In this document: positions 50,734 through 57,391 of the stretch, piece by piece | How the letters are laid out: each line of letters starts with the position of its first letter | Numbering within the stretch: the first letter of the stretch is position 1 | Assembly: GCF_949628265.1 (NCBI RefSeq) | Contig: NC_088786.1 | Location: 28,293,681-28,357,680, forward strand | Reading direction: 5' to 3' | From: Cloeon dipterum | Taxonomy: Eukaryota > Arthropoda > Insecta > Ephemeroptera > Baetidae | Length of the DNA: 64,000 bases | The notes under the pieces: generated by a model | What the model was told of the DNA's origin: nothing | Database searches by the model: none | What the model saw: only the letters and a program-made list of their open reading frames with translations | Program-made: the position numbers and the translations under genes

Positions 50734-51174
50734 TATGCCTAACATTCAAGATCCTAAGTTGTTGCGAGAGGACTAACCAAAGAATTGTGAAATTGTCGAT
50801 GAGCAGTAAATGGATCGCGCGAAAGCAATTTTTGTGATGTGTAATTTATAAATCATGAATGGTCTTGTGTCTTGTGAACAAGTTATGGCTCTCTAAATCA
50901 CACATTTGACTGCAAAGAAATTACTATGGAAATTTGGAATTTACTTTTATTAATAAATAACAACAATTATTAAAAAAGCGATATTTAAATGGATTTTACT
51001 TACAGAATATCACAATAAGTGTTAACTGACCATTAAGGTGCGAAATTTGAATTTAATTAATAGTGATTTTAATCAATTTAACCTCACTTGTTGAGTAAAA
51101 AGTTATCAAAAAATTATGCTTCAAACTTAATTCCCCTCAACAATTGAGTTCGTTTTGATTAGCACAATTGTATC
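50734..51174. other. Convergent 3' spacer (Rsod-like / MBD4-like)
   Basis: AT-rich DNA between two convergent stop codons. A plus-strand AATAAA at 50952-50957 could end the Rsod-like transcript. No coding sequence is seen. Confidence 0.6.
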
Positions 51175-52211
51175 TCAAATGCCTAGTCTCTCGGCGTTTT
51201 CATGGAGCCACTGATGGTAGAAGTTGAGCATATAGTCATCAGGTTGCACTTGTCGCCACTCATTGCGGCAAAAAATTCGGAACGAGTCGTTGCCGTATTT
51301 ATCAATGCCATACAACTCATTCGGGTAGAGCCACGATTTCTTCCTGTAGTCCTCAGAGAAGCGGACAATTTGCTCAGCGCGCCGGTTGTGCAGTCCAAGT
51401 GGCCTTAGGAAGGCGGCCAACTCATCCAGGTCAGCCGCGATTGCCGCTTCAGGGTCTGGCCACTTCTCGAAAAAGAGCCACACCAGCGGACACGCCACAC
51501 TGCCGCGAGTCTTGTTCAGGAAAATAGTTGCGATCAGCAGCTTCCAAGGGTCATGGTACAGTTTTTCTTGAATCAGATCATAAGGTGAACGAGGGGGAAT
51601 CCACCTGGTGGCACATTAAATCAGGGTTAAGTCGAAAATGGAAGTTCTAATTTACAAGCTAAGCTAAACCGGAGATTGGAAAGCAGAGGAAACAAAAATT
51701 TACATGAAATGAATTAAGTAATTAAATACTCTGGGATTTTTTAAACTAAGAAAAATCATCATTGGCTCCAAATTGTGAGGATTTAAAAAAAATAGTTTAT
51801 ATCGGTTGGTCACAGAGAATTGCAATAAAATGTATTCAATCATTTTTACTTGGAAGCCTTGATAACGTCCAGGACTGATTTGACCTGCTGCTCCTTTCGG
51901 CGGCTCCCACTAAAATACTTGCTGGCAGTCACAATCGGGGTGGACTCTTTCTCAGTGCATTCAATGCCTGTTGACGAATCATCTTGTCCATGTTCCTGAG
52001 CTCGAGTTCGATGGCCTGCAGCGTCAACGTCTGCGCCTCCAGCGTCGTTCGAAGCGCCTCTGACTGCCGGCTCGTCTCCACAAAATTCACCACCTCGCTC
52101 CACCGAACACTCTGTTGCTGCTGTCCGTCTGTCAGCACGGCTTCTCCGCCTGTGAAAAAGTCGTTCTTCATTTAAAAAAATTGGACCAACGATTTTGGTT
52201 GGGGGGATCAT
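51175..52211 (-). CDS. MBD4: MBD4-type DNA glycosylase (HhH-GPD), start uncertain
   Basis: Exon 51175-51604 encodes 143 codons matching the human MBD4 glycosylase domain: WIPPRSPYDLIQEKLYHDPW, LLIATIFLNKTRG, and the helix-hairpin-helix GIDKYGNDSFRIFC with its catalytic Asp. MBD4 removes T or U opposite G at deaminated CpG. A 5' exon ending at 51850 (donor AA|GTAAAA) supplies KYFSGSRRK and completes the ASK|WIPPRSP junction, like the YFS...KKW segment before the human domain. That exon overlaps the UPF0449 coding exon in another frame. The frame is open up to an ATG at 52211 (about 263 residues), inside UPF0449 intron 1. Alternatively, UPF0449 exon 1 may splice to an internal acceptor. No methyl-CpG-binding domain is seen. 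Confidence 0.8.
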
Positions 52212-52434
52212 AAGGATTTCTTACGATCTGCCTTTTTGGAAAGGTGTTATTGAGAACTGTGTAGTGCGGGTCAGTGAGTGTGTTTTTATGTTTATATTAA
52301 CCTGAGGTTGTATGGCTTGCGGCCACTTGGAGAGCTGGGTCTTGAGAGCCAGCAGCGTTGGCCAGGTCCTCCAGGATCTGTTCGCAATTCGGTGGCCTGG
52401 GACGAGGAGGGAACACGGTCTTTTTCTTCAGCAT
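51929..52434 (-). CDS. UPF0449 family protein (C19orf25-like)
   Basis: Predicted 117 residues, two exons (52302-52434 and 51929-52149), joined phase 1 over a 152-bp intron. The N-terminus, KKKTVFPPRPRPPNCEQILE, is the UPF0449 signature, followed by a coiled-coil-prone helical region (ESSRQ-like to RNMDKMIRQQ). Length equals the human C19orf25 protein (118 residues). Function is unknown for the family. The second exon overlaps the 5' exon of the MBD4-like glycosylase on the same strand in a different frame. An acceptor (CCAACAG) lies just upstream of the ATG, so an untranslated exon further upstream is likely. Confidence 0.85.
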
Positions 52435-54056
52435 GGCAAGGCCTGTTGGATGAAAAAAAAAACACCACATAAATTTAATTTATGGTTATAGCTAATGTAT
52501 GTAATTTTATGCTTATTCATTATAGATATGGAAAAGTCACAGTTTTCGCCACCCCTACTTTAACATGGTATTCTCATAAGAAATAAGAACTGGCGAGATG
52601 TTTAACCCGGCAGAAAAACTGTAACTTTACCATACACATTGAAAGTCCAAATTGTAGCATTAATAAAGTAATGCGCATTTCATACCGTGATCTGCTTGTG
52701 GATTGTGGATCCGTCGTAAACACTATTTTTGTTCTGTTCAAAATCCACAGTTGTCCAACCCCAGAAACTCGCAAAAATTACTGCAGTAATCATAAAGCAA
52801 AAGAACTATCTTCAACTCGTAACAAAAACATACATGGCTATGGGCGTGTACTTTCTCCGGTCTCTAACACAAAACACACATCATCATCTGACACGTTTCA
52901 ATTTGAATGGCAAAGGCGGGAAAGAGGCGTGTGTTCTTAAAATATAACTACTTACTGTACCGCCATCGTAATAAACTAATCTTTACGTGTCTATGCCGCA
53001 TTTCGAACTCATTTTCACCCCCTTGAAAAACACTTTCATGCATGATATTAGCAATTTTTTATTTATAAACCCAGAGGTGCATTAATTACGCACCTTATAA
53101 CGTAAGTAAGATTACATAATTTTTTATTAAAGTGGTTTAGATGACACAAAAGAATAAATAATTTATATATTATACACACAATGAGTATCATATTGTTGTT
53201 TCAATATATGTAAATTACAGATATGTAAAATGAGAAATGAGGACGCACTCTAAAATGTAATGTGTTGCGTCATGTCATTTATATATGAAGATTGCCATGC
53301 GCGTGTGCCCTAAATTGGTTTTTGTGTTATTTTCCTGTGTGATCAACTATAAGCCAGCAAGAGATTTTTCCTTTTGATATGTTTGTACTATAATGTTCCC
53401 CGCGAACGACAACGACACACACGCGCGTGTTCCCATTGCTCTCATCTAGTTCGCTGATCTTGCTGTGAGCGCTGGAAATCAGATTAAAACGGCGATGCAA
53501 TCACAAAATGTGAGCCGCCTCTATGGTGAATGAATTGTGGGACTGCGATAAAAGTTTCAGTAATATTCTTTCTTTTCTTTTGGTCTGATGTCGGATTCTA
53601 AGAAATCTTGGTAATCTTTAGGAAAATCACTTCCTTATTTCTTCTACACACCCGTCCTGAATTGCGTGCATTTCATATCAGCTGTTAATGGACGAAATAT
53701 AACCCTTCGTCCACGATTTCTTAAAAATATAAGGTATAGGAGTAAAAATTTATTTCATGCTAGCAAACGCAAAATCTTTAAAAATATTACAATTTAAAAT
53801 ATTTATTCTTATCAGTTACGGTTAGTTAAATAAGAAACAGGGTTTGGAGTGTTTTTTGTTGAATTTCTACATAATAATTTTATTTTGCATGGGCACTTGT
53901 CCAAATTGCTGTGAAAATTGTATACGTGTGGGGAAAGTGATTGATTTATGCGTTTCTTTTAGATCCTGTGGAAAGGCATTCCGACGAAAAAGGCGAGGGA
54001 AAAGCACCGTTCTCGCTCGCCTCTGACAAAAGGCACCTCTTTTTAGGGTCTGTCTC
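52435..54056. other. Gene-free spacer (UPF0449 promoter / MAPK15 3' side)
   Basis: Mostly AT-rich. No coding exon is recognised between the UPF0449 start and the proposed last MAPK15 exon. A CpG-rich patch near 53400-53530 and the sequence up to about 52990 may hold the UPF0449 5' UTR and promoter. Confidence 0.5.
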
Positions 54057-57000
54057 TCAGTACCACCATTGCCGCTGGCCGCTGATGCTGGCTTTCGTGG
54101 CCTGCGTGCCTCCGGGCGTACTCGTCCGCCGCTGAAAAAGGAAAATCTGAATTGAGGCGCCGCTTAAGGAACGACAGAGAGTGTGTGGGAAATAAAAGAG
54201 AGCGTGGCAGTGCAGAAACAAACTCTACAAGCAAATCAATAAGGGAAGCAACAAACAGCCACAATCAGACGCCGGCAATAAATACCGTGGGAGGCGCAGC
54301 ACGCGGTGCTCTGCACATTATATTTAGTTTTTGCTTCTCGTTCTCGACTCGGTCTGCCTTTATTTCTAGCAAGAACCTCAAAATCGATCGTGTTATCGTC
54401 GTGACAGTAATTTTGTGCGAGAGAGCAAATGGCTACTGACATGTTCTAAAGTGCAAAAAGGGGTGAGATTGAAAAGTTGTACCTGCACCGATCTCAGATA
54501 AAACCCATGCGGCACGTCAGCTGCAATCGACACACAGTATAAATCAAAACATTTTACTCGTGGCTCCTGTCCTCGCAATAAGTAAAGCGATTGAGTCTCA
54601 CCAGTTTTGGTTTGTCTTGGCCTGACTGGGACTGTGAGGTAGTGGAGGAGTGCGCGAGGCCCGATGACACCGTCTTGGAAGCCGGCATCAGGCACTTATT
54701 GTTGCTCGAGGCAGCGGCGGCGGCGCTGACGCTGCTTAAAATCGGCAACGATGACTTGCGTTCCATCTTTTTTGCCGTCGTTTTAGAACAATTTTCACCA
54801 CCTGCCCCCATCCCCGATGGGGCCAAGTTGGACGAGGAGTCTTTCTTCTGCAGGGAATTCCTCCTAGCCTCGGCTAAAATCAGGCGGAAAAAATTAGTGC
54901 GGAACTGATTGCAAGCAATTTTGAGCATAATAAAGTCTAGTTTATTTTGTTCTACGTATTTTCATCGATTCAATAGTTCATTTTTATTTATAAAATGCAA
55001 TAATAATTTTCAAATATATTTATGCAACCGGCCTAACTTTAGTGTCAAGAAATTGCCTACTTATTCCGATAAAATAAGGTTTTTTACCTGTCGAATAGCT
55101 GGCGAGAGAAGCTTGGGTGGCCGGCCTGGGTCTGCTGGCCACCTGCTTTGGCTCTGTGGCCGTCGGCCTGAGCTGGTTTTTCGAAGCGTTGCTCTGCTGC
55201 TGCGGCGTTTGGTGTTGCCTTCGAGATCTGGACGCGTGGTGACGGCTTCCGCTGGCCGCTGAAGGTGCGACGGCCAACTCGTAGAGCTTGCTGCGGTACT
55301 CGTCCACCGAAAGCATCACGTTGTCGTTCAACGGCGGCGTTACTGGATTGCACAACACGGGCTCAGAGTCGATCGCGTGGAACCTGATGCGAGCGTGTCA
55401 AGTAGAAATTATACGCTTTCTCGTGAGAAAATACAAATGTACTTTGAACCAAATTACTCTTGATCTAGACAAATGTTGAAACGAAACCAATTGTAGTGGA
55501 TAATTTTTTTTAATTTTAATTTAGTTTTAATAATTTCACTTGCTTTGCAACGTAGTCGTGTTTCAGGGCCTCCGCGGCGGTCAGTCTCTTGAGCGGATTT
55601 AGAACGATCAGCTTTTTGACGAGATCGACAGCATCAGAGGGTGCCTCGCGCAGAATCTCGTCCAGGGTGGCGTGTTTGCCTGGTGGCTTCTGCGAAAACA
55701 GCTTGCTGCCGTACGTGCCGGCGAAGATCTTCATGTCTGTACCCGTGTCAAAACACTTTCCGAATTAGAAATATATAAGGGTTGCTTGAGATCCGCGGTA
55801 CCTTCTTTGGTGGGTGGCGGCAACGTCTGCGAGATGAGCTGCAGCTGCTGGATGCTGCTCGGTCCAGGGAAGACAGGCTTCTCAAGCAGCATCTCGGCCA
55901 GGATACAGCCCAGGCTCCACATGTCGATGCCTTTCGTGTAACTATTAAAAAACGAGTCAGTCCTGAGAGTAAAATAGCAAAATAATAATTTCAACGCTGA
56001 CTCTGAGAGAAGCAATTAAATTCTGCAGAACTTAATCCGTGTAAAAGCTTCAAAGAGTTAAAGTTGATCAATTTTCAAAATGAAAAAAAAGGGAAATTCA
56101 AGTCATACCAGGTGGAGCCGACGAGGATCTCGGGAGCCCGGTACCAGCGCGTGGCCACGTAATCCGTCAGGTCACCATGACCTACCGGCGTGTCAGACAA
56201 CTGGCTCAAGGAGCGCGCCAAGCCAAAATCAGCAATTTTGCACGTGCAGTTCGTGTCAATGAGAATGTTTGACGGCTGCGGAAGATCTCGTTAAATCGAC
56301 TCTTTTGGGGGGTTTTAAGGGTACCTTTTGGTCGCGGTGGATTACGTTGCCTGAATGAAGAAAGAGAGTGGCTTTGAGCAGCTGGTACATGATGTATCTT
56401 TTGTGCACGTCTTTCAGAATGTCTTTACTCAGAATTACCCTGTGCAGGTCCGTGTCTTTGATAAGAACCATTAAATTAATATTTTATTAACAGTCAAGGT
56501 TAAATAACAGTATACCCATGTATTCGAAAACGAGGTAAATATCTTTATAGTTGAGGGCCGAGTGGACGCCGAGCAGGCGGATGACGTTGGGGTGACCGGA
56601 AAATGCTTTCAGGAACATTATCTCGCGGTAAGTGCGCTGCGCGTCCGTCTGGTTGGTGAACGCGTCAAAGATTTTTTTGAGCGCCACAACTTTCTTGCTC
56701 TTTCGCTCGCAAGCCTTCCACACAATTCCATAGGCCTTCAATCACGAAAAATATTTGTTTAAAGAAATCAGGTATCCTATAAACTTCTTTTTCTAAATAT
56801 CACCCTGGTTGTGGTTTCAAGTTTCAACGCAATGTAAATTTAACACGTTTGATTTTGCACGAAAGCACGCGATCGAGCGTATATAAGATTGCAGTTTAGA
56901 GTGCAAAAGTAATTGGATTGTGAATTGCATCTCATGACTAGAAGTTTTTTCCATTTACTTTCCCGTGTTTTGGCGCAAACTTTTAAGGAAAAATCGTTAA

Positions 57001-57391
57001 ATAAAGTTTCAAAAATCTTTTTTATTTAAACTGAAGAATGAAACTTCAGTGATTATTAGGAGAAAAGTTTAACTTTTTAAAGACTTTTACTTTACAAAAT
57101 GCCACATGGCCCCATTCATATTATAATTTTGTTATTTATTCATAAACAACCTCAGGTAACCTAGCACTAAATACACTTTTGTGATAGCTACAATTGAAAC
57201 TTAGATTTAAAATACCAAACAAATATTTTAAAAGGTGAAATCATATCTAGATACGAAGTCCGATCATCAACTGTCCCGAAAATATTTGCGGACGTAAGAA
57301 CACTCACCCCTTTGCCAATTCGTTTCTTGATTTCATACTTCTTAATAATGAAGTCGTCGAGCTCGAGGGTTTGCGGCTCTCCGCTGGTCAT
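54057..57391 (-). CDS. MAPK15: Atypical MAP kinase MAPK15 (ERK7/ERK8)
   Basis: Serine/threonine kinase. Exons: 57308-57391, 56516-56735, 56325-56455, 56109-56275, 55802-55941, 55544-55736, 55088-55383, 54602-54873 and 54057-54131, about 525 residues; an alternative model reads exon 8 through to a stop at 54554 (516 residues). The glycine loop GKGAYGIVWK, VALKK lysine, HRDQKPSNIL (the Gln is typical of MAPK15), DFGLAR and [12 protein letters not shown] are present. The activation motif is TDY where human MAPK15 has TEY. The intron after exon 6 is GC-AG (AA|GCAAGT...CAG|G), required to give [13 protein letters not shown] long basic, serine-rich tail follows the kinase domain, as expected. The family acts in ciliogenesis, secretion and autophagy. 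Confidence 0.9.

Follow-up and report, generated by a model that had tools for sequence, protein, structure and literature searches.

The locus described here lies on the minus strand of a 64,000-nucleotide stretch of the Cloeon dipterum genome (C1:28293681-28357680, hereafter the window), the genome itself amounting to 190 Mb in ten contigs, and it is composed of four predicted exons, A to D. The coding part of exon A (52966-52956) carries the predicted start codon of an MBD4-type glycosylase (AUG1) and ends in a phase 2 donor, ATGGCGGTACA/GTAAGT, where the slash marks the exon boundary. Exon B (52442-52302) is open in two frames, one of which encodes UPF0449 from the AUG at 52434 and the other the predicted N-terminal extension of MBD4; exon C (52149-51850) encodes the C-terminus of UPF0449 at 52149-51929, ending in TGA, and is open throughout in the MBD4 frame. 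Exon D (51604-51175, stop codon TGA) encodes the HhH-GPD glycosylase domain, recognised by MBD4 chains of the PDB and by PF00730. When these exons are joined at the predicted junctions, an MBD4 ORF of 293 aa is obtained, of which 151 residues form the N-terminal extension, and the entire 117-codon UPF0449 ORF (51929-52434; 133 nt in exon B and 221 nt in exon C including the stop) is nested in it. Across exons B and C the MBD4 frame uses the same splice junctions as UPF0449. Upstream on the same strand, a MAPK-family gene is located at about 54000-57391, and its exon at 56735-56517 matches MAP kinases in the PDB (best E 1.3e-26 for this one exon).

The C-terminus that the initial annotation read at 52149-51929 of the minus strand was confirmed, since the protein of 117 aa formed with the upstream exon aligns with positions 1-94 of the 98 in the PF15136 profile (E 8.1e-14), and with 52.4 bits against a curated cut-off of 27 it belongs to this family. 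A search of the genome for the UPF0449 family gave a single match, the exon B part of the window locus. The human member of PF15136/UPF0449 is presumably C19orf25. In a screen described in passages of PMC11030420, human C19orf25 was clustered with USE1 and Golgi-to-ER transport, and with this tie to Golgi-to-ER transport no common task of the UPF0449 and MBD4 products is known.

Exon D is closest to MBD4: 15 of its 17 distinct PDB matches are MBD4 (E 8e-57 or better, best 2.2e-59), and the remaining two are endonuclease III (E 4.2e-4). In the alignment, its KYGNDS is identical to that of human MBD4, and the catalytic Asp in this motif is taken to be D560 of the human protein. The open frame of exon D extends upstream only to 51615, without a Met before the catalytic core. 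With regard to the methyl-CpG-binding domain that forms the N-terminus of MBD4, none of the six PF01429 matches in the genome falls inside the window, PF01429 is absent from the 293-aa model, and the extension has no Pfam match at E 0.01, so that the gene is filed, on its sequence, as an MBD-less MBD4-type glycosylase. Genome searches for additional sequences resembling exon C or the extension gave, among the best-scoring candidates, the window locus alone.

Three diverged MBD4-like domains without the Asp of KYGNDS are found elsewhere in the genome. At the position of this motif, tblastn alignments read RYTYEV in L002/L014 (C5:24458319) and KYTIEV in L003 (C5:16668509), and the ORF of L013 (C5:19198500-19208400), inspected by eye, reads SYGVAV; an MBD domain is encoded on the same strand, some 3 kb away from the L013 domain. 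Since the Asp is retained in the window gene alone among the four MBD4-like matches of the genome, the glycosylase enzyme and the methyl-CpG reader may have parted in this genome. Outside it, two IMG/VR contigs (L045, 4986-5456; L046, 4992-6236) carry an MBD4-type glycosylase starting MWIPPKSP, with 48% and 44% identity respectively, and by eye the MBD4-type domain of L045 is followed by a stretch resembling an Fpg/Nei-type glycosylase, which in L046 belongs to the same ORF. As relatives of the locus, the viral contigs gave only these two stand-alone glycosylases, with no UPF0449, and the genome contigs gave none. The spread of Mbd4 in animals is treated in passages of PMC8330077.

Splice sites were scored with profiles from this genome, that is, from 56 predicted GT-AG introns (a few of them doubtful-looking) taken with a purpose-written spliced profile aligner from those 30 of 130 kinase-family matches that were returned as loci. 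Against these 56 introns, the model uses sites of ordinary strength: the percentiles of its donors are 55 (52956), 64 (52302) and 57 (51850), and those of its acceptors 77 (52442), 39 (52149) and 46 (51604). Within 51100-53600, the 52149 acceptor ranks 10th among 139 AGs and the 52956 donor 6th among 126 GTs. The model sites cannot be told from the rest by score alone, because others are equal or better, for example the acceptor at 51745 in the intron between exons C and D (86th percentile; the same intron holds a donor at 51704, 61st percentile) and the donor at 53094. By eye, a 42-nt cassette exon at 51745-51704 between C and D would preserve the frame; this intron is not coding-like.

At the junction between exons C and D, the donor CAA/GTAAAA at 51850 and the acceptor CCACCAG/GT at 51604 join in phase 2, so that the MBD4 frame, ending in ...KYFSGSRRKEQQVKSVLDVIKASK at the donor, continues as WIPPRSP, and the product ASK-WIPPRSP can be aligned with human MBD4 starting at 'SKW'. 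The segment KYFSG...ASK had been proposed to join the MBD4 exon in phase, and this holds at the predicted 51850/51604 junction, with its frame open over 51846-52220. Two frames of one stretch are thus open and joined, at predicted junctions, in phase to conserved protein sequence, and the proposal of a coding stretch common to UPF0449 and MBD4, read in two different frames, is borne out at the level of sequence. Where MBD4 could enter exon C is limited by its acceptors. Past the UPF0449 stop, all 10 AGs of the exon are at or below the 4th percentile (51921, at the 4th, among them), whereas 51967 reaches the 29th and 51995 the 25th; exon C acceptors of ordinary strength therefore lie at the exon start or within the UPF0449 coding sequence, and if MBD4 runs through exon C, some double coding follows.

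Whether the MBD4 frame is itself coding can be judged from its openness and its composition. No stop occurs in it across the 117 UPF0449 codons, while the third frame has seven. Synonymous resampling leaves it open in 0.66% of cases with the kinase codon usage of this genome and in 1.2% with the gene's own codons shuffled; resampling by third-base use does so in 0.16% (exon D) and 1.46% (own). In 30 kinase coding sequences, the equivalent frame is open in 88 of 3071 overlapping 117-codon windows (about 3%, from 3 of the 30 genes). Openness over 117 codons exceeds chance, not overwhelmingly, with P about 0.002-0.03. The codon score of the MBD4 frame in the overlap is high, being equalled or exceeded by only 1 of 318 off-frame kinase windows; beyond openness, it carries no further information, since open frames are expected to score as well (P 0.25 and 0.4). 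In addition, residues 1-118 of the extension contain a high share of L, S, R, A, G, P, T and V, a set of our own choosing (0.64 as against 0.45 in the domain). It has been reported (PMC6195259) that overlapping genes favour residues of high degeneracy; a similar bias may appear when any GC-rich exon is read off frame.

The best evidence for exon C in MBD4 is the stretch of 79 nt past the UPF0449 stop (51928-51850), which is coding-like in the MBD4 frame only. Its GC content is 0.519 as against 0.302 in the next 245 nt of intron, and its codon score is 13.9 bits in the MBD4 frame as against -0.7 and -6.5 in the others, in the range of kinase windows of similar length (quartiles 11.8 and 23.6). 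None of 214 overlapping intron windows reaches this score and three reach its GC, the introns being the same as those that trained the noncoding model.

These data also bear on the possibility that there is no dual coding at all, that is, that MBD4 begins in a separate exon and its frame is open across the overlap by chance, for which an openness of up to 3% leaves some room. Two routes can be imagined. The start could lie in the intron between exons C and D, where, by eye, CAT/GTAAAT at 51704 joined to 51604 would create an AT/G start and the N-terminus MWIPPRSP; the donor at 51704 stands at the 61st percentile and the acceptor at 51745 at the 86th, and the domains of the two IMG/VR contigs, standing alone and starting MWIPPKSP, have a similar beginning, but the intron is not coding-like in any frame. 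Alternatively, an upstream exon could use the acceptor at 51921 just past the UPF0449 stop, which is as weak as noted above. Neither route sits well with the coding-like character of 51928-51850 in the MBD4 frame and its end at an ordinary donor, and this explanation is regarded as improbable.

Since there is no Met before the core in exon D and no in-frame Met for MBD4 in exons B or C, the start must be sought further up. The frame had been described as open from 52211, within the intron before exon C, through the UPF0449 exon. It is indeed open through exon C; it does not end at the intron, as it is open through exon B as well, to the acceptor at 52442, when the UPF0449 junctions are used. 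These usual junctions give the simplest model, and a start at the intron ATG 52211 is not needed. In exon A, AUG1 has an A at -3 and a G at +4, and the donor of the exon is the single GTRAGT on the minus strand of 51605-55500. Between 53750 and 52443, three phase-compatible first exons have a donor scoring at least as high as that of exon A (donors at 53631, 53094 and 52956). The donors at 53094 and 53631 are stronger than that of exon A, and only exon A among the three has a purine at -3 together with a G at +4. Shuffles yield at least one such first exon in 7.6% of cases with the start context and in 49% of any kind. Exon A is likely, short of proof, to be the first exon of MBD4, with a modest significance (P 0.076 with context, 0.49 without).

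Another way of sharing would be confined to exon C: MBD4 would reach the acceptor at 52149 through a different first exon, for example exon A with B skipped (246 aa) or one further upstream, UPF0449 would be transcribed separately, and dual coding would persist over the UPF0449 part of exon C. Splicing from A to C is in phase, and the resampling, divided by part, leaves exon B alone open in 14-32% of cases and exon C to 51967 in only 2-7%. Against this stand the openness of exon B in the MBD4 frame and the lack of any AATAAA or ATTAAA that could end a UPF0449-only mRNA ahead of exon D. This arrangement is considered unlikely, if somewhat less so than an absence of dual coding.

A fusion had also been suggested, through an internal acceptor CAACAG/GC. 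The in-frame fusion is possible on the sequence, with the first exon base at 51967 (boundary 51967-51968) and not near 51976: exon B spliced to this acceptor would give a protein of 226 aa, the UPF0449 N-terminus followed by the MBD4 domain, and the two-frame overlap would shrink to just 39 nt. As given above, the acceptor at 51967 stands at the 29th percentile, and that at 51995 is of similar strength. The fusion would leave unaccounted for both the open MBD4 frame in exon B and that over 52149-51968, and of the alternatives it is the one given least credence.

As for the number of mRNAs, neither AATAAA nor ATTAAA occurs between the UPF0449 stop and exon D; only weaker poly(A)-like hexamers are present in the intron between C and D (AATACA at 51836, TATAAA at 51801, TTTAAA at 51787 and 51745). 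The next hexamers follow the MBD4 stop, namely ATTAAA at 51073 and 51057 and AATAAA at 50951 (50946-50951), the latter being the sole AATAAA on the minus strand from exon B to 50500. On the upstream side, the AATAAA hexamers at 53884, 53807 and 53754 may end the MAPK gene, leaving about 0.8 kb before exon A. The simplest reading is probably a common mRNA for MBD4 and UPF0449. The sequence supports the initial annotation in that an exon appears to be shared; in the simplest model two exons are shared, probably on one mRNA and through the usual UPF0449 junctions. The UPF0449 stop, lying 79 nt before the last junction, could expose UPF0449 translation to mRNA surveillance.

The explanation preferred here, to which a probability of roughly 0.55 is assigned, is a dual-coding gene, that is, a single minus-strand transcript whose four exons, A to D, carry two overlapping ORFs. 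AUG1 in exon A would open the 293-aa MBD4-type glycosylase, with an extension that spans exons B and C, and AUG2 in exon B, the UPF0449 AUG, would open the 117-aa UPF0449 in another frame, ending in exon C. AUG2, the second AUG of the joined mRNA, follows AUG1 by 19 nt, and the third lies 310 nt from AUG1; a transcript start upstream of 53001 or 53043 would place AUGs of the UPF0449 frame ahead of AUG1, and 53100-52967 is not coding-like. The two proteins may arise through leaky scanning at AUG1 or through the use of different first exons; in the former case ribosomes starting at AUG1 would produce the glycosylase and those passing it UPF0449. Since the context of AUG1 is strong, leaky scanning alone might yield little UPF0449, and a second first exon in the intron between A and B is therefore a real possibility; a weaker donor lies there at 52686 (23rd percentile). 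Of the two overlapping frames, that of UPF0449 is probably the older, and the MBD4 extension would have been overprinted on it. In its most specific form, with a conserved UPF0449 ORF wholly nested in the sole Asp-intact MBD4-type glycosylase found in the genome, and with one mRNA and two AUGs 19 nt apart, the proposal is put forward tentatively.

To our knowledge, the known refCDS/altORF doublets differ from this locus in that a conserved-family domain is not carried by each of their ORFs. INK4a/ARF uses alternative first exons, and the bicistronic mRNA of RPP14/HsHTD2 is not known to have two frames nested in this way. Dual-coding mRNAs are known (PMC4705651, PMC13352861). According to the former, XLalphas/ALEX (GNAS) and other refCDS/altORF doublets likewise produce different proteins from two overlapping frames of one transcript, INK4a/ARF (CDKN2A) likewise uses alternative frames of one gene for unrelated proteins, and RPP14/HsHTD2, named bicistronic, likewise has one mRNA for two functionally unrelated proteins. 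Compared with XLalphas/ALEX, each ORF here carries a conserved-family domain, though the overlapped part of MBD4 is unrecognisable. In the 5′ region of SRD5A1, as described in PMC13352861, initiation likewise takes place at nearby AUGs in different frames, whereas the conserved catalytic domain is present in only one of its three products. The named cellular examples in the passages of PMC4705651 are mammalian, and a moss case is also found in the literature; no report of an MBD4-UPF0449 pair was found in literature searches on UPF0449/C19orf25, insect MBD4, MBD4 together with C19orf25, and dual coding.

The predicted dual-coding transcript would be unusual in tying two unrelated conserved families together, and in that one conserved gene appears to hold, within its 5′ coding part, the complete ORF of another. 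If this is true, neither gene could change freely in the overlap, and the levels of UPF0449 and MBD4 would be tied at translation. It would be an invertebrate case with a whole conserved protein in one frame and, in the other, a reading that continues into a DNA-repair enzyme; here, an annotation restricted to a single frame for each exon would leave MBD4 truncated or overlook it. Moreover, it would show how a downstream gene can take over the exons of an upstream gene as its own 5′ coding region.
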